Positions 2,725 through 16,225 of a stretch of 32,645 nucleotides of DNA are shown here, piece after piece (the stretch's first letter is position 1; every line of letters begins with the position of its first letter). The DNA comes from Lentisphaerota bacterium (GTDB lineage Bacteria; Verrucomicrobiota; Kiritimatiellia; PWTM01), in the NCBI GenBank assembly GCA_016873715.1, contig VGWF01000049.1:1-32645 (forward strand), given 5' to 3'. Made by a program: the position numbers and the translations under genes. The notes under the pieces are model-generated. The model worked only from the letters and a program-made list of their open reading frames with translations, was not told where the DNA came from and made no database searches.

Positions 2725-3951
2725 CTACCCCGCGGCGGCGACGGGGGCGATCCTGACGACTTTCGCACGGGTGGTCGCCGGACCGATCCGCCAGAACGTG
2801 GCGGCGTCCTTGGCGGTCACGCGGGCCTTGTAGTGCCGGTGCAGGACCTCGGGCTCTCCGACGTGGCCAAGCTGCAACGCGGTCTTGCCGGCGGGGTGGA
2901 ACTGGGCTAGGTGGTACGTCCCGAAGCTGTGGCGCATGCCGTTGGGCGGCCAGTCGACCTTAGCCTCCTTGCGGACCTTCCGTAGCGCCCGGCGCGAGAA
3001 GTACAGCAAGCCGCTTTCTCCGCGGTGCGGTGCGAGCCATGCGGCAAGGTTCGGTTGGATCTCCACGTCGCGGTCCCGGCGTTTCTTCGCCGTCGCGGCA
3101 TCCACACGGATCAGCCGCCGATCCAAGGCGATCCGTTGCCAGTCGAGGTCGGAGAGCTCGTTCTCGGTCCGAAGCCCGGCGAACAGCCCGACGGCGAGCC
3201 AAGGAACGAGCCGGGGCGCGTGCTTCACGGCCGCAGCCATGATCCGCTTGACTTCGGCCGGCGTGAAGATGCCCGGCGCGCGGTGGTCGATCTGCCCGCG
3301 GCGCTTCGGCACGGGCTGCGTCGGTGTGTATCCCATTTCGTTCGCGAACAGGAATACGCTCTTCGCGAACCGGCGCCAGTCGTCGCGGGTCACGGGGCCG
3401 CACCCCTCCGACCGCTGCCGGATCCACTCGACCATGTCGCGCGTGGTCACCGAACGGATGGGCCGGTCGCCAAGGTCCTCGCCCAAGGCCGTGCAGCGGC
3501 GCTTCAGGTCGCGCAGGGTCCGCGGCCGGAGGTTGTTCTCGGCCGACTGCTTCAGCAACTCGTCGCAGCAGGTCCGAACGGTCACGGCATCCCCCGCCGG
3601 ATCGGCATGGGCCAGGTAGTGCTCGACCGCCGCGGTCAACGAGCCCTTGCGCCCTTCGTCCAGCAGTTCGAGCGCCCGCAACACGTCGGCGCGCTGGTAG
3701 TCGGTCAGCTTCGAGAGGCTGACGGCGCGGTGTGTCGCCTCGAACGCGACGGCGGCGGCGGCATCCTTCCGTTCCTCGCGCCACTCGTCGGCCAGCCTGT
3801 CGGCCGCGTCGGCGTCCGCGACGACACGTCGGCGCCTGGGCGAGAACACCCGGCCGGAGTCCACGAGGAAGCCCCGGCCCGCCGCGCGGATCTTGGGCCA
3901 CTTCGGCCGCCGGCCCGTCCGTCCCCTGCCCTCTTGCGCCGCGTCACTCAT
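2725..3951 (-). CDS. Tyrosine-type site-specific integrase
   Basis: A 408-residue phage/island integrase (tyrosine recombinase) that would act at the neighbouring tRNA-derived site. An N-terminal arm-binding region (about 1-110) is followed by a core-binding domain (about 120-215) and the catalytic domain (about 225-395). Catalytic residues visible are R261 (in AGLRTENE), K289/K290, R340 (GMRHSFGTY), H363 (QLGH) and nucleophile Y374 (HRHYKARV). The His of the usual H-x-x-R box is Asn (N337), a substitution seen in some active recombinases. The start at 3951 has a GGAAGGGG ribosome site; longer in-frame starts would run into the direct repeats upstream. The gene reads away from the tRNA fragment 120 bases upstream, which fits attachment-site-proximal int placement. 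It was probably functional when the island inserted. Confidence 0.93.
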   Translation of the reverse strand: MSDAAQEGRGRTGRRPKWPKIRAAGRGFLVDSGRVFSPRRRRVVADADAADRLADEWREERKDAAAAVAFEATHRAVSLSKLTDYQRADVLRALELLDEGRKGSLTAAVEHYLAHADPAGDAVTVRTCCDELLKQSAENNLRPRTLRDLKRRCTALGEDLGDRPIRSVTTRDMVEWIRQRSEGCGPVTRDDWRRFAKSVFLFANEMGYTPTQPVPKRRGQIDHRAPGIFTPAEVKRIMAAAVKHAPRLVPWLAVGLFAGLRTENELSDLDWQRIALDRRLIRVDAATAKKRRDRDVEIQPNLAAWLAPHRGESGLLYFSRRALRKVRKEAKVDWPPNGMRHSFGTYHLAQFHPAGKTALQLGHVGEPEVLHRHYKARVTAKDAATFWRIGPATTRAKVVRIAPVAAAG

Positions 3952-4004
3952 CTGGAACCCCTTCCATTCGGCCGGATGCGGCCGGGTGGCATTTACGCGC
4001 CGAG

Positions 4005-4026
4005 AGTGTGGCAGAAGTGTGGCAGA
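4005..4026. repeat. Two tandem 11-bp direct repeats upstream of the integrase
   Basis: AGTGTGGCAGA occurs twice head-to-tail (4005-4015 and 4016-4026), between the integrase start and the tRNA fragment. Tandem short repeats beside an attachment core are typical arm-type integrase binding sites. That role is inferred from position. Confidence 0.5.
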
Positions 4027-4072
4027 GTCAAGGCGCAAGCGCGCTTTTCTCGCTACAGTTGCGCTTTGGCTC

Positions 4073-4122: not shown

Positions 4123-4405
4123 GCTTCTCCCCCCGCACTTCCTCTTCGTTGAGTCCGCTTTTCCGGGGCAAGGAGTCGTTCAGATCGACTCCGATGACAG
4201 GGCCAAAGGAAGCAACCGCTTTCGCGTCGACCGTGCCGGAGCGGGCCCATGACGGGCAGGCGGTTGCCTGCGGATCGGAAGCCCATGCGGTGACAAGACC
4301 GCCTACGTCCGACAGGATACGATGGTTCACCGGCCGTGGGACGCGGTCGACGCGCGCAAAGGCGGTTGCACGTCGCACCCCTCGGAGTGTATGAGAATAC
4401 CCGCC

Positions 4406-7111
4406 ATGAATCCTACTCGAATCGTCCTGTGCCTGCTCGCTTTCCTGCCCTTCCCCACCGCCGGTCTTGCCGCGCCGCAGTTTGAACTGCCCCAGGGCGC
4501 GTTCTTCGAGGCGGAGGACTACGACCGGCTGGTGCGGGGTGAGACCGGCTTCGCGAAGGTGACCGTCGAGGTGGGCGTCAGCGGCGGCAAGATCATCCTC
4601 GGCATGTTCGCGGACGGATTGATCCGCTACGACCTCGCGGTGCTGCAGGCCGGCTCGCACGCGCTCTGGGCGCGGTGCGCGGCGCCGGGCGATGCGACGG
4701 CCGGCTTCGGCTTCGGCGGCGAGGACGCCGGACTGGCCACGGCGCGCGTGGCGAAGACCGTCGAAGGCCTCGGTTCGTTGACGGCTCCGAACGCCTACCA
4801 GTGGCGACGGCTCGGCAGCGTGGATCTGCCCGCGGGCAAGACGCAGCTGCTCCTCGGGCGCGGCGCGCTGCGATACGACTGCTTCTTCCTGAGTCGGCAG
4901 CCGGAGTTCGTGGTCACCGACGCTCTTCTGACGGAACTGGAACGCGCAAAGGAAACGCCGAAGGGCCGGAAGCTCCCGGAGCTTGTCCACACCCGCGCCA
5001 TCACGCGGCATCCTCAGTGGCTCATGCAGAACGCCCTCCGGCCCGCTTACGCGCATTGCGAATGGGACAAGGCGAACACGCCCCAGTCGTGGGCGAAGAT
5101 GGCGCGGGAAGCGGGCGCGAACTGCCTGGTCGGCGTCGGGGAGATGCCCGCCGGCACGCTCGACGGGACGATGAAGGCGTTTCCTTTCGAGTCCATGGAC
5201 AAGAAGGGCTTCAAGCTGCCGCCGGGGTACCGGAAGGACGACCACTCCTGGGTGAAGGAGTTCGCCGACGCCGGGCACGCCGAAGGGCTGAAGGTGGTGA
5301 TGTATGACGGCGCGTATCGCACGCTCGATCCACTCCTGCTGGAGCATCCCGAGTGGCGGCAGCTCGACGCCAAGGGCGCGCCCTATCGCGCCGGGTTCGG
5401 TTCCTGGCATTCGCCCTATCGCGCCGCCTACATCGCGCGCTGGGTGAACGCGGCGCGCGAGTGCGGCATTGACGGAATCATGGTGGATATGCTGTTCACC
5501 GCCCCGCGCGGCGGCGACCACTCGCCGTTCGCCGTCAAAGCGTTCAACGATCGATTCGGCGTCGAGCCGCCGCGGGTCGAGGATCCCCGCGACCTGACGT
5601 GGCAGCGATGGATTGACTTCCAGGCGTGGACCCGCGAGGAGGTCATGCTGGATGTCACCGAGGCGCTCCACGCGGTGAGCCCGGAAATCGCCTGCATCTG
5701 GAACCAGACCACCGGCTGGGTGTTCGACGGACGCGAATACCTGACCTCCCGCGCGGGGAAGTGCGCGGATGGCTTGCTGGAGGAGATGGGCTGGGAGGTC
5801 TCGCACGGAGCTTTCGATAGCCGGCCGTTCGCATGGCCGCTGCAAAGCGCGTGGCAGAGCCTGTTCCTGCGCTGTCGCACCGCCTACGGACAGATGTGGC
5901 ACCTGAACGGCTTCTACACCCGGGTCAACCACGAGGCGCTGTCCTATTCGATGTTCGCCAACGGCATCGCGCCCGCCGTGGTCACCGGCGGCAACTGGGA
6001 CTACCTGAAGCGGATCTGGTCCCACATCCAGGCCTGCGAGAAACACATGGCCGGCGCGACGCTCGCGCCTTACGCGGCGCTGCACTTCAGCGAGGACACG
6101 CTCCAATGGCACGCGAACGCGCGCGGCGACGATGCGCGCCAGGCCTATCTCAGGAATGTCTTCGGTTTCTTCCAGGCCTTGCTGGAGACGCATCTGCCGG
6201 TCGCCATCGTCACCGACGACGAGTTGGCGGATGCCGCCGCGCTCCGACGGTATGCGACGGTTGTGCTTCCGAACACCTCGTGTCTTAGCGACCAACAGGC
6301 GGCGGCGCTGGCGGCCTACGTGCGGGAAGGCGGCGGGCTGATCGCTTCGTTTGAAACGGGCGTGTTCGATGAAGATGGCACGCGCCGGGAGAAACCCGCG
6401 TTGGAGGAACTCCTCGGCGTGAAGCAGGGCGCCGTGGTCGGCGGCCGGAATTGGATGCTGGACACGACAAAACAGACCCACAGAATCACGCGCATCCCCG
6501 AAGTCACCGACGGCGGCGATCCGTCACAAGGTTCCCGCGACCGGAAACCGCAGGTGACATTCTTCGTGGCACACGCCAGCCGCGACGCCCGGATCGTGAA
6601 GACGACCGCGCAGGACGGCATTGAATCGGTCCGGCTGGGCGGACCGGGATCCGGGTACAGCGCGCTGCACACCCGCGTGGTCGGCCGTGGGCGCGTGGCC
6701 TATTTCCCGCCGGACATCGGTCACGGCTACTTCGCCTACAACCACCCGATCGCCCGGCGTCTTATCGAGCGCACGGTTCGCTGGAGCGCGGGGCAATCCC
6801 CGTTCTTGGAAACCGACGCGCCGATGGCGGTCCAGACCGTCTGTTTCCGCAAGGGCGACGACCTCGTCGTGCACCTGGTCAACGACAACTCCTCGTTCGG
6901 CCGCGCCGCCGCGCCGAACCCGGAGAGTTTTGGCGCGTTCCGCGACGAGGTCTTGCCGGTGCATGGAGTGAAGCTCGCCGTCAGCGGCAACTACCGGAAA
7001 GCGATCCTGCTGCCCGATGGCAAGGAACTGGCCGTCCGATCGAATGACGGCAAGGTGGAGACGACCGTTCCCCGCGTGGACATCCACGCGATGGTCGTGT
7101 TCACGCGGTAG
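4406..7111 (+). CDS. Secreted GHL6-like glycosyl hydrolase with beta-galactosidase-trimerisation-like domain
   Basis: A 901-residue exported protein. The signal peptide spans about residues 1-23 (hydrophobic core VLCLLAFLPF, Ala-rich cleavage site). Next comes a beta-rich, CBM-like region (about 30-165, beginning FFEAEDYDRL). A TIM-barrel-like region (about 195-590) follows, with HPEWRQLD, a long glycosidase-type linker and GIDGIMVDML, resembling hypothetical glycosyl hydrolase 6. A GATase-like domain (about 600-720; YATVVLPNTSCLS, YVREGGGLIA) matches the trimerisation domain of GH42-type enzymes. The C-terminus is a beta-rich tail with VHLVND. I prefer the ATG at 4406; an ATG at 4391, with GGAG only 3 bases away, would add five residues. 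The exact substrate is unknown; the fucosidase next door suggests a complex fucosylated glycan. It is the first gene of the plus-strand glycan locus. Confidence 0.8.
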   Translation: MNPTRIVLCLLAFLPFPTAGLAAPQFELPQGAFFEAEDYDRLVRGETGFAKVTVEVGVSGGKIILGMFADGLIRYDLAVLQAGSHALWARCAAPGDATAGFGFGGEDAGLATARVAKTVEGLGSLTAPNAYQWRRLGSVDLPAGKTQLLLGRGALRYDCFFLSRQPEFVVTDALLTELERAKETPKGRKLPELVHTRAITRHPQWLMQNALRPAYAHCEWDKANTPQSWAKMAREAGANCLVGVGEMPAGTLDGTMKAFPFESMDKKGFKLPPGYRKDDHSWVKEFADAGHAEGLKVVMYDGAYRTLDPLLLEHPEWRQLDAKGAPYRAGFGSWHSPYRAAYIARWVNAARECGIDGIMVDMLFTAPRGGDHSPFAVKAFNDRFGVEPPRVEDPRDLTWQRWIDFQAWTREEVMLDVTEALHAVSPEIACIWNQTTGWVFDGREYLTSRAGKCADGLLEEMGWEVSHGAFDSRPFAWPLQSAWQSLFLRCRTAYGQMWHLNGFYTRVNHEALSYSMFANGIAPAVVTGGNWDYLKRIWSHIQACEKHMAGATLAPYAALHFSEDTLQWHANARGDDARQAYLRNVFGFFQALLETHLPVAIVTDDELADAAALRRYATVVLPNTSCLSDQQAAALAAYVREGGGLIASFETGVFDEDGTRREKPALEELLGVKQGAVVGGRNWMLDTTKQTHRITRIPEVTDGGDPSQGSRDRKPQVTFFVAHASRDARIVKTTAQDGIESVRLGGPGSGYSALHTRVVGRGRVAYFPPDIGHGYFAYNHPIARRLIERTVRWSAGQSPFLETDAPMAVQTVCFRKGDDLVVHLVNDNSSFGRAAAPNPESFGAFRDEVLPVHGVKLAVSGNYRKAILLPDGKELAVRSNDGKVETTVPRVDIHAMVVFTR

Positions 7112-7206: not shown

Positions 7207-8664
7207 ATGAAACCAAACCTGATCGCCATCGGATCCCTCGTGTTGCTTGGCCTCGGCCTGCACCCGGCCGACGCCGAGACGAACAATCCCCACACCGACT
7301 GGTTCTGCAAAGCCGGCTACGGCGTGTTCGTGCATTACTTGAACGACGTCCAGAACAACCCGGACACGGTTCAGAGTCTCGACAGGCAGACCTCCTGGGA
7401 CGAATGCGTGCGCGAGTTCGATGTGAATCGCTTTGCCGACGCGATGGCCCAGGCGGGCGCCGGTTACGTGATCTTCACGATGCACCAGCGAACGCGGTTT
7501 CTCATCGCGCCGAACGCCACGTTCGACCGGATCACCGGCTACAAGCCCGGCGAAGCGTGCGCCACGCGCGACCTGGTCACCGACCTTCATACGGCGCTCT
7601 CCGCGAAGAACATCCCCCTGATGCTCTATTGGACCGGTACCGGACCCAGCGCCGACGCCAAAGCCAACGCGGCCATGGGCTGGCAGGTGCCCATCGCCAA
7701 GGACTGGTTGCTGAAATGGGCGGCCATCACCGAGGAATACGCGCTCCGCTATGGCGAGAAAGTCGCCGGCTGGTGGGTGGACGGTTGCTATTTCAAGCAC
7801 GGCGATCTTCGCTACGATGACGAGAAGCTCGGCATCCTGGCGCGCGCGTTGAAGGCGGGGAACCCCAAAAGCATCATTGCCCTCAACCCTGGCGTGGAGC
7901 TCGCCGCCTACTCGCGACACGAGGATTTCACGGCGGGGGAACAGAACCGGTTCCACGAACAGCCGCTGGGCCGCTGGCTAAACGGCGAGCAATGGCACAT
8001 CCTGTCCTACCTCGGCGCGGATCGCGGCGGCAATTACTTGGGGTGCGGTTGGTGCGAGCCGGGCACCCGATACACCAAACGCGAACTGGCGGAGTACATC
8101 TTCGACGTTAATCACGCCGGGGGCGTGGTATCCGTGGATGTGCTGCTCTTTCGCGACGGGACGCTCGACCGCTCGCAGCTGGAAGTGTTGAAGTCACTCC
8201 GCCCGGCCCTGGCGACGATGAAGGCCCGTCCGCCGGTTCCGCCGGGCAATCTGGCGTTTCGCAAGCCCGCGCGCCTGCTCAGTCTCGACGGTTCGCACGA
8301 GTTGGTGGTCAACCATCAAGGCGCTTCGAAATTCGGCGTGGACGGCGAACCGAACACCTCCGCGCTGGCAGCGAATGAATGGCCGTGGACTTACGAGGTG
8401 GACCTCCTTGAACCGCGCGCGGTGCGGCGCGTGAACGTCACTTTCGCCAAACGCGGCTTTGCCACCGACCTGCGGCTCCAAGCCTCGGCGGACAGGAAGA
8501 CCTGGCAGAGCATCGCCAACGCCGCCGACCTCGACGGCTCGCCCTACGCCGCCGAGTTTCAGCCTGTGAAAGCGCAGTGGATTCGAGTGAGCGCGCTGAA
8601 ACCGAACGGTCCAAACCAGAAGGGAACGCAGATGGCAGTCGCCGAACTGGAGGTTTACGAGTGA
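7207..8664 (+). CDS. Secreted GH29-like alpha-L-fucosidase with C-terminal F5/8 type C domain
   Basis: A 485-residue exported protein with a signal peptide (about 1-23, ending PADAE) and a GH29-like (beta/alpha)8 domain (about 28-345). The catalytic domain shows GVFVHYL, the substrate-contact stretch GAGYVIFTMHQRT, and WWVDG, in which D192 sits at the position of the GH29 nucleophile. A jelly-roll F5/8 type C (galactose-binding) domain (about 350-485) ends in MAVAELEVYE. GH29 enzymes release alpha-L-fucose from glycans with retention; the acid/base residue cannot be fixed by eye. The start has a good GAAAGGA ribosome site. The stop TGA overlaps the GTG of the sulfatase relic by 4 bases (GTGA), implying the two were once translated together. 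Some non-fucosidase proteins share this fold, so the family is surer than the activity. Confidence 0.82.
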   Translation: MKPNLIAIGSLVLLGLGLHPADAETNNPHTDWFCKAGYGVFVHYLNDVQNNPDTVQSLDRQTSWDECVREFDVNRFADAMAQAGAGYVIFTMHQRTRFLIAPNATFDRITGYKPGEACATRDLVTDLHTALSAKNIPLMLYWTGTGPSADAKANAAMGWQVPIAKDWLLKWAAITEEYALRYGEKVAGWWVDGCYFKHGDLRYDDEKLGILARALKAGNPKSIIALNPGVELAAYSRHEDFTAGEQNRFHEQPLGRWLNGEQWHILSYLGADRGGNYLGCGWCEPGTRYTKRELAEYIFDVNHAGGVVSVDVLLFRDGTLDRSQLEVLKSLRPALATMKARPPVPPGNLAFRKPARLLSLDGSHELVVNHQGASKFGVDGEPNTSALAANEWPWTYEVDLLEPRAVRRVNVTFAKRGFATDLRLQASADRKTWQSIANAADLDGSPYAAEFQPVKAQWIRVSALKPNGPNQKGTQMAVAELEVYE

Positions 8665-8908: not shown

Positions 8909-9024
8909 CCCCCGCGGCGGGACCGGTCTGTCTCTCCCTCGCGCCTCGATCCCGGAGTGCGTTCGCGTCCCATTCTTGCCAACCCGCAGTCACTCTGGCA
9001 GCTTCACCGCCATGAGAACGCTGC
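8909..9024 (+). repeat. Dispersed intergenic repeat, copy A
   Basis: This segment matches 13449-13564 over about 115 bases, with a 52-base identical run (8963-9014 against 13503-13554), and matches 18663-18702 more weakly. The end of the repeat is the ATG, plus the next few codons, of the FAD oxidoreductase gene. The same element upstream of the other two genes ends in an ATG that opens no gene. Confidence 0.8.
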
Positions 9025-12000
9025 TTCTGACCATCGTCGCGGGACTGTTTCAGACCGTCGGCTGCGTGATGGACGCCTCCGCCGATACGGCGGCCGACAA
9101 GCCGGCGGGTACTCAGACGGTTTATGACGTCGTCGTCTATGGCGATTCCTCCGGCGCGGTCATTGCCGCGATCGCGGCGAAGCGCGAGGGGCGGTCGGTC
9201 ATCTGGTTGAATCCCACCGGCTTCGCGGGCGGCATGAGCGCCAGCGGACTGGGGGCGACGGATTTTCTCGGCAGACAAAACACTTTTGGCGGCATCGCCA
9301 AGGAATTCTACGCGGGCGTCGCGGCGGCCTATGGAGTGGATTTCGTTCGCAGCTTCGAACCGCACGTCGGCAAGCAGGTGTTTGAGCAGATGATCAAGGC
9401 TGCCGGTGTGACCGTGGTTTACAACGAGAAGCTCGACCGCGCTCCCGGCAAGGGCGTGACGATGGACGGCCGGCGCATCCGGGCCATCACGACGCTCAGC
9501 GGAAGAACCTACCACGGCAGGATGTACATCGATGCGACCTACGTCGGCGACCTGATGGCCGCCGCCGGCGTGACGTACACGGTCGGACGCGAGCCGGAGA
9601 GCCAATACGGCGAGGACTTGGCCGGCGTGCGGCGCGGCGACACGAAGCCGCGGGTGCATTACACGCAGGGCGACAAGGATCACTTCATCAAGGACGTCGA
9701 CCCCCATGTGAGCCCCGGCGACTCCGCCAGCGGCCTGCTGCCGCACGTTCACAAGATCGAGGGCCTCACGAACGGCCAAGGCGACAAGAAGATCCAAGCC
9801 TACAACTACCGGGTCTGTCTCACGACCGATCCGAAGAACCGCATCCCCATCGAAAAGCCGGCGGGCTATCGCGAGCTTGATCACGAGCTGCTGCTGCGCA
9901 ACTTCGACGCGGGTGACCCTCGCCTCCCGGCGCTCATCGAGCCGCTCGCAGGCTCCGGGCAGAAGGTGGACTGGAACAACATGCACGCCGTCGGTTCGGA
10001 CCATCCCGGCACGAACTGGGACTACCCCGAAGCCGGCTACGAGCGCCGTCGCGAGATCGAAAAGGAGCATGAGACCTACATCCGCGGATTCCTATGGACG
10101 ATGGCGAACAGCCCGCGCGTGCCCGAAGCCATCCGCAAGCGCACGGCGTCCTACGGGCTGCCGAAGGACGAGTTCACCGACAACGGCGGCTGGCCGTGGA
10201 TGATCTACATCCGCGAAGCCCGGCGCATGGTCGGCGATTACGTGATGACCCAGAACGATTGCATGGGCATGAAGTCCGCGCCTGACCCGGTGGGGCTGGG
10301 ATCGTTCGGCATGGACTCGCACTGCGTGCAGCACATCGTCACCGACAACGGCACGGTGCAGAACGAAGGCGTCATCTGGCGGGTGCCGCCCCGGCCGTAC
10401 GGCATTTCCTATCGCGCGATCATTCCGAGGAGGGGCGAGTGCGAGAACCTGCTCTCGCCCATCTGTCTCTCCGCCTCGCATGTCGCCCACGGCTCGATCC
10501 GCATGGAACCGGTCTTCATGGCCTTGAGCCAGAGCGCGGCCATCGCTGCCGGACTGGCGCTCGACAGCCATGGGAGCGTGCAGGACGTGCCCTATCCGGC
10601 GCTCCACGCGAAACTTCTCGCGGCCGGACAGATCGTTGACCCGTCGCAAGCGCCCGCAACGAAACGCGCCGCTGCGAAGAAGAAACCCGCTCCGACCGCC
10701 GGCGCCGTGACGAGCGCGCCGGTCGCGATGGCGGCCGCCGAAGCTCCGGTATCGCGCTTCCGGGGTTACTACACCCGGCTGCCGTTCGATGATCACGGGT
10801 TCACAGGGAAATACGCGGACATCGTTGTCGACGTGCCGCAGCGGGGGCAGTTCGTCTTCAGCCGCGAGTTCGGGTATCAACCCCGGTGGCTGCCGCGCGG
10901 CGGCAAACCGCACTCCGTTGCCCGGCTGATTCCGCGCAAGGGCGATGGCCCGGACCAACGCCCGGACAATCGCAACATCGCGTGCAACGCCGCCATCGTC
11001 GGGCAGTCGGAGGCGAGCGTCACCGTCCACTGGCGTTACGCGCCGGATATCACGAAACCATCCTTCACCGACTACCGCGAGGCCTACAACGCAGCCGGCA
11101 CCCCCGCCCCGTTCTACGCCGACTACGCCGATGAGTACTTCGTCATCCACGCTGACGGCAACGTGGTCCGCACCGTGAAGAACGGCTGCGCCCGGCTCGC
11201 GGACTGGAATGACCCGGGCAACCGGATCGAGCAAACGCTGCAACTCACGCCCGACGGCATTCGCGAGACCGCGTTGCGTCCGGCGCAGCTCTCCCGGGCT
11301 TCGGTGCCGCCGGTCGCCGGCTCGCCGGTGAAGTCCGGGCGCACCGAGAACGTGATCCGCCACTGGCGCTTCGACGAGGGCGCAGGGTTCGCGACCGCGG
11401 AAGAGCGATCCGACAAGGCCTGCGAGATCGGCGGCGTGGAGGCGTACTGGCGGCCGGGCGTGTCCGGCGCCTGTCTTTCGTTCGATTCGTACAGCAGCTT
11501 CGTCACGCTGCCTGCGGCCCAGTGTCCACGCCTCGAAGGCGCCCTCACCCTCTCCGCGTGGATCGCGATCCAGGAGTATCCCTTCCATCTCGCCGCGATC
11601 GTGGACCACATGGACGGCAACAAGGGCTGCCTGCTCGGCGTCAACGCCAAGGGCCAGGTGGAGTTCAGGATCGGCACCGGCGACGCCGTCCGGTCGGTGG
11701 TCACCGAGCGCGTTCCGCTCTACGACTGGGTCCATGTCGCCGCGGTCGCCAGGAGCGGCGCGGCCGCCGTCGTCTATCTCAACGGCAAACCGGTCGCCAC
11801 CGCGTCCCAAGCGTCCGTTTCCGTAGACGCGACGAACATCGACCTCTCCCTCGGCATGACCCGGTCGGCGCGTCAATTCCCGCTGTTTGCGGAGCGGCCG
11901 GTGACCAAGCAATTCAAGACGACCATGGCGTTCAGCGGTTGGATTGACGAAGTGCAGCTGTTCGACAAGGCGCTGAGCGAATCGGAAGTCGCCGCGGAAC

Positions 12001-13316
12001 ACGCGGCGCTCCAGCCTTCGACCGCGCGTCCGCTGAAGCCCTGGGTGTTGCCCGCCGGGCCGGACGTGTCGCCGGGATTTCGCGCCGAGAACACGAAGTT
12101 GCGCTACAGCCCCGAGTGGGACGGGCTGTGGCGCGTGGGCGACTTCGCCGACATCGTGGTGACGTTTGCCGACAAGCCCTGGCGCTACGTCTTCTGGCGC
12201 GGCACGCGCTACCTGCCGTCCCTGGTCACCGCCCACGGTCGTGATGGAATCTGGAGCAACGACCAAGGACCTGAACGCTACGATGGCCAGTGCTACGAGC
12301 ACATGTCCGACATGCTCTGCCGCTTTTCCAACGCCCGGATCATTCATCGCAGCGACGCGCGCGTCGTGGTGCATTGGCGGAACGCCTCGGCGTCGATTGA
12401 CTACAAGTGGCCCGCGCTGGATGCGAACGGTTGGGGGATTTGGACGGACGAGTACTGGACGATCTACCCCGATGGCATTTCCATCCGCCACCAGTGGGTG
12501 CATAACAACACCGACAAGCCGATCACGGCGGAGTTGAACCAGAACGAGATCCTCTGCCACCCGGGCCAGGCCACCGAGGACGTGCTGAACGACGACGCGG
12601 TGATCCTGGCAGATCCGAAGGGCCAGATCAGGACCATCTGTCGCACCAGCCCGCCCGCCAAGAAGGGCGAGGGCGACTGGAATCTCCAGCTCATCAACCT
12701 GAAGGGCAGGACCAAGCAGTTCGAGATCGGCGAAGTCGGCGCTTACGGCGAGACGTGTCTGCACCGAGACGTCTGGTGGCGGGGCTGGAATCACTATCCC
12801 GTGCAGCTCATTCCGAGCGACGGCACGCGCGTGACCACCTACGACCGTCCGTCGTCCACATGCCCGGCCACGTTCCGCGAACTGCGTCACAGCAGGGGCG
12901 GCAACAACATCGAGGCGATGGTCATGTACGGCCTGACGGACAAGCAGCCCGTCGAGCTGACGGCGCTGAACCGCTCATGGAACTTCGCACCCGCCGTCAT
13001 CGACACCAACGGCTGCGTTTCCCTCGGCTACGAGCAACGGGAACGCGCCTTCAAGTTCGTGAAGACCGCCGAAACGCTCGGCTTCACGCTTCGCGCCACC
13101 CAGGAGCGACCGCTGGTCAATCCCGCGTTCATCATCGCCAACTGGGGCCGCCCCGACAGCGCCGTGTCATTGAAGATCAACGGCCAGACCAAGACGCCGG
13201 GGACTGACTACCGCACGGGCACCGAAGTGGACACCGCCGGAACGGACACGCTCGTGATCTGGCTGCCGTTGTCGGCGACCGAGACGGTTTCGGTTGAGCT
13301 TGGCAAGCGAGAATGA
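9012..13316 (+). CDS. Secreted FAD-dependent oxidoreductase fused to a duplicated beta module with a nested LamG domain
   Basis: A 1435-residue exported protein. Signal peptide or lipoprotein leader: MRTLLLTIVAGLFQTVGC, with Cys after a hydrophobic run. The FAD_oxidored-type domain (about 37-555) starts YDVVVYGDSSGAVIA, a variant dinucleotide-binding loop, and continues GGMSASGLGATDFLG and YIDATYVGDLMAAAG. A Lys/Ala/Pro linker (about 556-580) leads to beta module 1 (about 583-770). A LamG/concanavalin-like domain follows (about 781-997: HWRFDEGAG, LTLSAWI, FSGWIDEVQLFDKALSE), then beta module 2 (about 1023-1435). Modules 1 and 2 resemble each other: ADIVV in both; VTVHWRY against VVVHWRN; DEYFVIHADG against DEYWTIYPDG. 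The start is the ATG at 9012, at the end of repeat copy A. Substrate is unknown; oxidation of an extracellular sugar or glycan is a guess from the neighbours. Confidence 0.85.
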   Translation: MRTLLLTIVAGLFQTVGCVMDASADTAADKPAGTQTVYDVVVYGDSSGAVIAAIAAKREGRSVIWLNPTGFAGGMSASGLGATDFLGRQNTFGGIAKEFYAGVAAAYGVDFVRSFEPHVGKQVFEQMIKAAGVTVVYNEKLDRAPGKGVTMDGRRIRAITTLSGRTYHGRMYIDATYVGDLMAAAGVTYTVGREPESQYGEDLAGVRRGDTKPRVHYTQGDKDHFIKDVDPHVSPGDSASGLLPHVHKIEGLTNGQGDKKIQAYNYRVCLTTDPKNRIPIEKPAGYRELDHELLLRNFDAGDPRLPALIEPLAGSGQKVDWNNMHAVGSDHPGTNWDYPEAGYERRREIEKEHETYIRGFLWTMANSPRVPEAIRKRTASYGLPKDEFTDNGGWPWMIYIREARRMVGDYVMTQNDCMGMKSAPDPVGLGSFGMDSHCVQHIVTDNGTVQNEGVIWRVPPRPYGISYRAIIPRRGECENLLSPICLSASHVAHGSIRMEPVFMALSQSAAIAAGLALDSHGSVQDVPYPALHAKLLAAGQIVDPSQAPATKRAAAKKKPAPTAGAVTSAPVAMAAAEAPVSRFRGYYTRLPFDDHGFTGKYADIVVDVPQRGQFVFSREFGYQPRWLPRGGKPHSVARLIPRKGDGPDQRPDNRNIACNAAIVGQSEASVTVHWRYAPDITKPSFTDYREAYNAAGTPAPFYADYADEYFVIHADGNVVRTVKNGCARLADWNDPGNRIEQTLQLTPDGIRETALRPAQLSRASVPPVAGSPVKSGRTENVIRHWRFDEGAGFATAEERSDKACEIGGVEAYWRPGVSGACLSFDSYSSFVTLPAAQCPRLEGALTLSAWIAIQEYPFHLAAIVDHMDGNKGCLLGVNAKGQVEFRIGTGDAVRSVVTERVPLYDWVHVAAVARSGAAAVVYLNGKPVATASQASVSVDATNIDLSLGMTRSARQFPLFAERPVTKQFKTTMAFSGWIDEVQLFDKALSESEVAAEHAALQPSTARPLKPWVLPAGPDVSPGFRAENTKLRYSPEWDGLWRVGDFADIVVTFADKPWRYVFWRGTRYLPSLVTAHGRDGIWSNDQGPERYDGQCYEHMSDMLCRFSNARIIHRSDARVVVHWRNASASIDYKWPALDANGWGIWTDEYWTIYPDGISIRHQWVHNNTDKPITAELNQNEILCHPGQATEDVLNDDAVILADPKGQIRTICRTSPPAKKGEGDWNLQLINLKGRTKQFEIGEVGAYGETCLHRDVWWRGWNHYPVQLIPSDGTRVTTYDRPSSTCPATFRELRHSRGGNNIEAMVMYGLTDKQPVELTALNRSWNFAPAVIDTNGCVSLGYEQRERAFKFVKTAETLGFTLRATQERPLVNPAFIIANWGRPDSAVSLKINGQTKTPGTDYRTGTEVDTAGTDTLVIWLPLSATETVSVELGKRE

Positions 13317-13696: not shown

Positions 13697-16225
13697 ATGT
13701 CTACTCGACAGCGGGAAGTGACGCATTCCCTCGCCATGGCCGTGGTGGGGCTGTGCCTGGGAACCCCCGCCCATCTGCGTGCAGCCGAGGGCTCCGTGCT
13801 CAAGGCGGAGAGCTTTCGGCCCTACGTCGAGGCGTTCAAACGCAACGACCGTGAACTTCATGCCCAGGCCGTTCCCAACAAGGCGGCCTGGGAGTTCCTG
13901 AAGAACAATGTGCCGTGGTTCGAGTGCCCGGACAAAGATATCGAGGAGACCTATTGCTTCCGCTGGTGGACCTTCCGCAAGCACCTCAAGTCCACGCCCG
14001 ACGGCTATGTGGTGACCGAGTTTCTGCCGCCGGTGGGCTGGGCCAGGAAGCACAACACGATCAACTGCCCCGCGGGCCATCATTTCCGCGAAGGACGCTG
14101 GCTCCATTCGCCGGTGTTTCTGGACGACTACGCGGTCTTCTGGTTCCACAAGGGCGGACAGCCACGGCAATACAGTTTCTGGGCGGCGGACTCCATCTGG
14201 GCGCGCTACCTGGTCACCGGCGAGACCCGCATCGTGAAGGAGCTCTTCCCGGAGTTGATCAAGAACTACGAGGCTTGGGAGGGCGACCATCGCGACGCCA
14301 ACGGCCTCTACTGGCAGGTGGACGGTCGGGACGGGATGGAGGTGTCCATCGGCGGCGCGCCGCATCCGAAAGCCGAGGGCTATCGGGCCACGATCAACAG
14401 CTATCAATACGGCGACGCCCTGGCCATTGCGCGGATGGCCGACCTTCTGGGCGACAAGGCCGTGGCCGAGCGCTTCCGCGGCAAGGCGGCGGAGTTGAAG
14501 CGGCTGGTCCAGGAGAAGCTGTGGGATGCGGAGGCGCAGTTCTTCAAGGTCCTGCCGCGCGGCGAAGGCACGCGCCCGGCGGACGTGCGGGAGTTGCACG
14601 GCTATACACCCTGGTACTTCAACCTGCCCGATGCGGACAAGTCGGTCGCGTGGAAGCAACTCATGGACCCGCAGGGCTTCCATGCGCCGTTCGGCCCGAC
14701 CACCGCCGAGCAGCGGCATCCCAAGTTCGCGGTTTCCTACCAGGGCCACGAATGCCAGTGGAACGGCCCGAGCTGGCCGTTCGCGACCTCCCAAACGCTC
14801 GAAGCCCTGGCCAATCAGCTGCGCAATTGCCCGCAAGATGTCGTGAGCAAGCAGGACTACTTCGACACGTTGAAGACCTACGCGAGATCGCACCGGCGGA
14901 CGCTCGAGGATGGCCGGGTGGTGCCGTGGATCGACGAGAACCTGAACCCGAAGACCGGCGATTGGATTTCACGCACCCGGCTCTCGAAATGGAAGAACGG
15001 CACATGGGACGCGGGCAAGGGCGGCGAAGAGCGCGGCAAGGACTACAACCATTCGACCTTCTGCGACCTGGTCATCAGCGGCTTGGTGGGCTTGCGACCC
15101 CGCGCCGACGACACGGTCGAAGTCCATCCCCTGCTGCCCGAGGGCACCTGGGACTACTTCTGCCTGGACCCCGTGCGTTACCACGGGCGCTCGCTGACGA
15201 TCCTCTTCGACAAGACCGGCTCGCGTTACAACAAGGGGAAGGGCCTGCGCGTGTTGGCCGACGGACGGGAGATCGCCGCGTCCGAGACGCTGGGCCCGGT
15301 GCGCGCGACCCTGCCGCCGCGGCAGTTCCTCCCCGGCACGGACACGTCGGGCGGCTGGACGAAGTACGAAGGGAACCCGGTGCTGGGCGGCACGTACGGC
15401 ACCTGTTTCGACATCACCGTGCTGCGCGAGGAGAACAAGTACCGGATGTGGTTCTCGTGGCGGCCGCAGCGGAGCCTGGGGCTGGTCGAAAGCACCGACG
15501 GCATCCATTGGAGCGAACCGCGCATCGTGCTCGGCCCGCGCAAGGAGTCCGGCTGGGAAGATAACCTCAACCGCCCCGTGGTCCTGCGTCGCGACGACGG
15601 CTACCACCTCTGGTACACGGGCCAGACGAGCAAGCAGTCGTGGATCGGCTATGCCACCAGCCCGGACGGCGTGACGTGGAAGCGGATGAGCGACAAGCCG
15701 GTCCTGTCGCCCGACGCGCCGTGGGAGAAGGTGGCGGTGATGTGTCCCCATGTGATCTGGGACGCCGAGGCACGGCAGTTCCGCATGTGGTATTCCGGCG
15801 GCGAACAATTCGAGCCGGACGCGCTGGGCTACGCCACCAGCCCCGACGGCCTCGTGTGGACCAAGCACGCGTCGAATCCGGTGTTCACGCCCGATCCCAA
15901 GCTGAAATGGGAGCAAGACCGCGTCACGGCTGCGCAGATCGTCAAGCAGGGCGCGTGGTACGTGATGTTCTACATCGGGTTCAGCGACAAGTGGCACGCG
16001 CAAATCGGCATCGCCCGTTCGAAGGACGGCCTCACCGGCTGGCAGCGGCATCCGGCGAACCCGATCATCCGCCCCAGCGCCTACGGGTGGGACCAGGTCT
16101 CCTGCTACAAGCCCCACGCCATCTTCGACGGCACGAAATGGCTCCTTTGGTATAACGGCAGTCACAGCGGCGTGGAGCAGATCGGCGTGGCCTTTCACGA
16201 GGGCGAAGACCTGGGATTCGAGTAG
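13697..16225 (+). CDS. Secreted two-module glycosidase: (alpha/alpha)6-barrel (MGH1/GH63-like) fused to a GH43/GH130-like beta-propeller
   Basis: An 842-residue exported protein with a signal peptide (about 1-31: AMAVVGLCLGTPAHLRA). Residues about 35-510 resemble MGH1/GH63-type (alpha/alpha)6-barrel glycosidases: FWAADSIWARYL, DANGLYWQ, INSYQYGDALAIARMA, HECQWNGPSWPFATSQ and YNHSTFCDLVISGLVGL. A short beta segment (about 510-548) leads to a five-bladed propeller-like domain (about 549-842). Its repeated blade signatures are YRMWFSW, YHLWYTG, FRMWYSGG and WLLWYNG, together with the ATSPDG blade motif, as in GH43/GH32/GH130-like proteins. The ATG at 13697 is 7 bases from GAAGGAG; an out-of-frame ATG five bases earlier opens only nine codons. 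Alpha-glycoside cleavage in the first half and furanoside or phosphorolytic activity in the second half are family-level guesses. Confidence 0.8.
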   Translation: MSTRQREVTHSLAMAVVGLCLGTPAHLRAAEGSVLKAESFRPYVEAFKRNDRELHAQAVPNKAAWEFLKNNVPWFECPDKDIEETYCFRWWTFRKHLKSTPDGYVVTEFLPPVGWARKHNTINCPAGHHFREGRWLHSPVFLDDYAVFWFHKGGQPRQYSFWAADSIWARYLVTGETRIVKELFPELIKNYEAWEGDHRDANGLYWQVDGRDGMEVSIGGAPHPKAEGYRATINSYQYGDALAIARMADLLGDKAVAERFRGKAAELKRLVQEKLWDAEAQFFKVLPRGEGTRPADVRELHGYTPWYFNLPDADKSVAWKQLMDPQGFHAPFGPTTAEQRHPKFAVSYQGHECQWNGPSWPFATSQTLEALANQLRNCPQDVVSKQDYFDTLKTYARSHRRTLEDGRVVPWIDENLNPKTGDWISRTRLSKWKNGTWDAGKGGEERGKDYNHSTFCDLVISGLVGLRPRADDTVEVHPLLPEGTWDYFCLDPVRYHGRSLTILFDKTGSRYNKGKGLRVLADGREIAASETLGPVRATLPPRQFLPGTDTSGGWTKYEGNPVLGGTYGTCFDITVLREENKYRMWFSWRPQRSLGLVESTDGIHWSEPRIVLGPRKESGWEDNLNRPVVLRRDDGYHLWYTGQTSKQSWIGYATSPDGVTWKRMSDKPVLSPDAPWEKVAVMCPHVIWDAEARQFRMWYSGGEQFEPDALGYATSPDGLVWTKHASNPVFTPDPKLKWEQDRVTAAQIVKQGAWYVMFYIGFSDKWHAQIGIARSKDGLTGWQRHPANPIIRPSAYGWDQVSCYKPHAIFDGTKWLLWYNGSHSGVEQIGVAFHEGEDLGFE

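Follow-up and report, generated by a model that had tools for sequence, protein, structure and literature searches.

M1-LamG-M2 is a conserved secreted protein of many phyla, in which two related modules, M1 and M2, stand on either side of a LamG domain, and the gene at positions 9012–13316 of the window (the whole 32,645-nucleotide stretch of DNA that was analyzed) carries this unit joined to an FAD oxidoreductase. The unit seems to be a new, unnamed and widespread protein family, and the FAD fusion is a recent, rare and derived addition, seen in two loci, that is not the core of the architecture. Multidomain carbohydrate-active proteins are already known as a class; what seems new here is the M2 family and its FAD fusion, and a literature search found nothing on the FAD/M1-LamG-M2 architecture. 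As to function, we infer a secreted glycan-acting protein in which the conserved unit has recently been fused to a secreted flavoenzyme, a proposal that we rate at roughly even chances.

The gene is a single uninterrupted open reading frame of 1,434 residues, starting at ATG 9012 (or TTG 8976), with the stop codon ending at 13316. From its sequence the product looks secreted, and its parts follow in the order signal peptide, FAD_oxidored, Ala/Pro/Lys linker, M1, LamG and M2. The preliminary description had the modules attached to a secreted flavoprotein, and that the FAD part is in one frame with the rest is borne out both by the uninterrupted frame and by the recurrence of the full architecture in locus L032 (G406:C131, an uncultured Lentisphaerae MAG), whose product also starts with a signal-like stretch. 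The parts of the protein and the neighboring genes are as follows.

4322..7108, + strand: upstream GH42M/ThuA/GHL6-like gene (Pfam)
7207..8661, + strand: upstream alpha-L-fucosidase-like gene with an F5/8 type C domain
9012..9083, + strand: signal peptide, residues 1–24 (boundary approximate), read from the sequence, MRTLLLTIVAGLFQTVGCVMDASADT
9126..10616, + strand: FAD_oxidored (PF12831), residues 39–535 (Pfam, 331.8 bits)
10647..10748, + strand: Ala/Pro/Lys-rich linker, residues 546–579, read from the sequence; its counterpart in L032 is KQAPAPKQKAAKKKKAP...
10749..11336, + strand: M1 module, residues 580–775, of which 580–734 match the N-terminal part of M2 (AlphaFold2 model)
11490..11993, + strand: LamG/concanavalin A-like domain, residues 827–994 (Pfam; structural match to AbnA domain 4)
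12069..12983, + strand: supersandwich part of M2, residues 1020–1324 (AlphaFold2 models; VIA-align Z 13–15.6 to supersandwich domains)
12984..13313, + strand: C-terminal beta-sandwich of M2, residues 1325–1434 (AlphaFold2 model; an equivalent segment follows M1 in L086)
13697..16222, + strand: downstream gene with MGH1-like GH, GH65 C-terminal and GH130/GH43-like parts

Pfam matched two regions of the 1,434-residue protein, FAD_oxidored (residues 39–535; 331.8 bits against a gathering score of 27, covering profile positions 1–416 of 416) and Laminin_G_3 (PF13385, residues 827–994; 67.9 bits against 27.6, positions 3–151 of 151), and none on either flanking module. A search of seven M2 sequences gave no meaningful Pfam match, the best hit (E 0.015) being to an unrelated family, and no known Pfam family of mutarotase-like enzymes, aldose epimerase for example, gave a profile match either, in agreement with the preliminary description, which recognized no named family for the module. 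A scan of GTDB genomes with the M2 alignment confirmed 296 relatives, from which 76 loci were kept; by their record names these relatives fall in Verrucomicrobiota, Lentisphaerota, Planctomycetota, Bacteroidota, Acidobacteriota, Ignavibacteriota, Aminicenantes and TA06, and a plasmid collection yielded no M2 relative. The kept loci hold 37 M1-LamG-M2 frames, 45 LamG-M2 frames and 17 that start at M2, some of these last being cut by contig ends, and M2 also occurs alone as a protein of 480–500 residues. Across the relatives E69, E77, D81, R98, E128, Y133, P134, R140, N210, P244 and W304 (M2 numbering) are invariant. The source genome encodes a second member, a signal peptide-LamG-M2 protein on contig C138, adjoining genes that from their sequence are GH115-like and GH2-like. 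M2-family genes stand in tandem, three to five in a row, at L073:2264–13258, L061:3652–11110 and L057:460–7209, and the frame at L115:142–4215 (− strand) continues from M1-LamG-M2 into a second LamG-type domain, Ig-like and CBM4_9 domains at its C-terminal end.

Modeled alone with AlphaFold2 (pLDDT 91.2), M2 is predicted to consist of a galactose-mutarotase-like supersandwich followed by a beta-sandwich, and the supersandwich topology of this predicted model is matched in VIA-align with Z up to 15.6 among glycan-degrading enzymes (PL26 15.6, GH38 14.7, GH174 14.4, LacZ 14.0 and PL8 13.1). The predicted fold is thus like that of the PL26 exo-rhamnogalacturonan lyase, GH38, LacZ domain 5 and PL8 (Z 13–15.6 over 203–266 residues), whereas identity to galactose-mutarotase-like supersandwich domains is only 4–13% and neither a PDB nor a Pfam profile match was obtained. 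With the PL26 rhamnogalacturonan lyase the supersandwich part aligns over 237 residues at 12% identity, with no PDB profile match, and the GH174 endo-1,3-fucanase (9k1g) superposes over 251 residues with Z 14.4 and rmsd 3.8, a match of fold only, at 5% identity over the aligned part. Searched against PDB sequences, the M2 profile found no chain at a meaningful level, GH174 included. The LamG domain is closest in structure to domain 4 of the GH43 arabinanase AbnA (Z 23.0, rmsd 2.4, 194 residues aligned), which was solved with an arabino-oligosaccharide and shares the fold at ~20% identity. With the whole M1-LamG-M2 model as query, Foldseek and VIA-align gave chiefly LamG-type jelly rolls; hits to the binding domains of clostridial neurotoxins among them reflect the shared jelly-roll fold only and were set aside as carrying no functional meaning.

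In GH38, LacZ, PL8 and PL26 the supersandwich domain is often an accessory one, and a catalytic role of M2 is therefore not shown by its fold. GH174 is a family of endo-fucanases, with D119, E120 and E218 as proposed residues (PMC11943901), so catalysis, too, may accompany the supersandwich fold. The substrates of GH174 are sulfated fucans, and a fucosidase-like gene lies next to the window gene. Since other glycosidase genes adjoin it as well, the substrate is likely a fucose-containing or otherwise decorated polysaccharide. Among the genes flanking the relatives (n = 82), sulfatases (6), GH29-type fucosidases (5), URO-D (4) and 3-keto-disaccharide hydrolases (3) are some of the commonest, with GH106 represented by two of the 82, all as raw counts without a background. 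The downstream frame at 13697–16222 unites MGH1-like glycosidase, GH65 C-terminal and GH130/GH43-like domains in one gene, and a phage-integrase-type gene borders the glycan cluster (2725–4038, − strand). The likeness of M1-LamG-M2 genes, ~80% even between distant Verrucomicrobiota and Lentisphaerota, is suggestive of transfer.

To our knowledge, none of the members identified here has a known activity. In the proposed glycan-acting protein, M2 would be the acting or ligand-binding domain, because it holds the residues fixed in all relatives, and LamG would bind carbohydrate and keep the protein on its substrate. M1, in which the M2 site would have been lost, may serve as a packing or substrate-platform domain. 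The FAD domain is envisaged to oxidize a hydroxyl group of a sugar in the same substrate, so that the fusion would hold two steps of one pathway together. It is possible, though we would give it distinctly less than even chances, that M2 is not an enzyme and that M1-LamG-M2 is a sugar-binding or cell-surface scaffold, leaving the FAD domain as the sole catalytic part and the fusion as a means of targeting the flavoenzyme to glycan. This would suit the frequent accessory role of the best supersandwich matches, the company of LamG and CBM4_9 domains in which M2 travels, and the C-terminal beta domains that some PF12831 proteins of the source genome carry too (judged by eye); against it, M2 exists alone in proteins of 480–500 residues with invariant acidic and aromatic residues, which is more like an active site than a plain scaffold. 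The opposite extension of the glycan-acting proposal, which we think unlikely, is that M2 defines a new family of carbohydrate-active enzymes, present in many phyla and with a supersandwich catalytic domain, the FAD fusion coupling sugar oxidation to cleavage; speculatively, oxidation of the sugar would come first and elimination or hydrolysis second, within one secreted polypeptide. A domain of ~415 residues that belongs to secreted-looking proteins, is often encoded beside glycan-degrading genes and goes unnamed in Pfam represents a gap in the carbohydrate-active catalogue.

The relationship between M1 and M2 is an old, real and partial duplication. The ADIVV, V.VHWR and DEY..I..DG blocks that the preliminary description had reported in both modules are present in M1 and in M2 in the same order, and the modules match directly by blastp (32% identity over 149 residues, E 6e-8), with a Smith-Waterman score of 98 against a best of 54 in 500 shuffles. 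Comparison of the M1 profile (n = 29) with the M2 profile (n = 42) gave a probability of 99.9 and E 1.4e-33 over 143 columns. Residues 579–1434 were modeled with AlphaFold2 at pLDDT 92.8 and pTM 0.94, the M1 fold being seen only within this larger model, and the predicted secondary structures of the modules agree at 0.70 in register versus ≤0.52 at the shifted registers tried (every 3 residues from −30 to +30). Self-alignment and structure prediction, two of the checks suggested at the outset, upheld the relatedness of the modules. The homology of the duplicated module stands on the profile match, the shuffles and the secondary-structure register; the copies are not equal, M1 being an abbreviated relative of M2's N-terminal portion. 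The corresponding stretches are ~580–734 in M1 and ~1020–1174 in M2, so that M1 corresponds to no more than the first ~155 of M2's 415 residues and is without the last ~255. Conserved M2 positions absent from M1 include N210, the H242–P244 block, G288 and W304 (alignment A4 numbering); in the profile alignment M1 retains D81, the HWR block and E128 but not E69 and E77.

A Sedimentisphaerales MAG (L086) shows how such a module may have arisen. There M1 is directly followed by a segment that matches M2 positions 315–420 (41.7 bits), with positions ~152–314 missing in between, the arrangement expected after deletion of the interior of a complete M2 copy, and M1 is therefore best read as an M2 copy shortened by loss of its central part. 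The frame concerned (L086:3961–7269) runs M1, the C-terminal sandwich of M2 and then LamG-M2, and looks like an intermediate of the M1 deletion. Half a supersandwich can thus survive as a separate domain, with the apparent intermediate still present. In a tree of N-terminal halves, built by a quick method on 181 columns, the 29 M1s all cluster together (SH-aLRT 100), separate from the 69 M2s, and the duplication is for this reason taken to be old. M1 lies N-terminal to M2 in 39 of 39 frames (loci L032–L107, a sample drawn with M2), and all seven strong matches of an M1-profile search across 346 genomes of the class are in frames containing M2 as well. Of free-standing homologues, a search for which had been proposed for each module, M2 has examples, and M1 was found only together with M2.

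The earlier reading of an uncharacterized domain duplicated around a LamG insert draws on the homology of M1 and M2 and the position of LamG between them, and we now consider it improbable, as LamG-M2 without M1 (45 frames) is about as common as the full unit (37) and M1 is an old separate clade rather than a full M2 copy. LamG is N-terminal to M2 in many proteins that lack M1, so it goes with M2 and is no insert between existing copies. The more likely order of events is M2, then LamG-M2, then M1-LamG-M2 and last FAD-M1-LamG-M2.

The last of these steps is confined, among the kept loci other than the window's own, to L032, whose product is ~80% identical to the window protein over 1,437 residues, linker included, and whose FAD copy is 87% identical. 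Like the secreted flavoproteins of PF12831, the domain here matches the whole profile, and near copies of it stand alone; what sets it apart is that it runs on into M1-LamG-M2, a feature shared with one other locus only. By sequence, only its Rossmann-type N-terminus resembles solved flavoproteins, and no solved structure was matched in this way by the cap region. In the careful tree the window protein pairs with L032 (99/96), and this clade lies inside a fully supported group (100/100) that also includes four unfused proteins, the branch that groups these four being weak (89/73). The simplest history is a single fusion event in the common ancestor of both fused genes, and transfer of a fused gene between the two lineages is possible. 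The fusion, whose conservation had been left as a point to check, thus recurs, but in two loci only. We dropped the idea that an assembly error, frameshift or stop loss joined neighboring genes, which has very little chance of being correct: FAD alone (G471/L172, 84% identity) and M1-LamG-M2 alone (G369, 82% over 858 residues) do both exist, but order, frame and linker are repeated in L032/G406, an independent MAG of a different family, neither fused gene has a stop or frame change, and the M1-LamG-M2 part begins without a signal peptide of its own. Rare as it is, the fusion offers a testable hint about which reaction shares the pathway of M2. Within the source genome 27 places match the 9012–13316 protein, most of them FAD_oxidored paralogues, and the frame at L005:1231–4044 (− strand) combines an undecaprenyl-diphosphatase-like stretch, then FAD_oxidored and then a C-terminal part that by eye looks like EF-hands.
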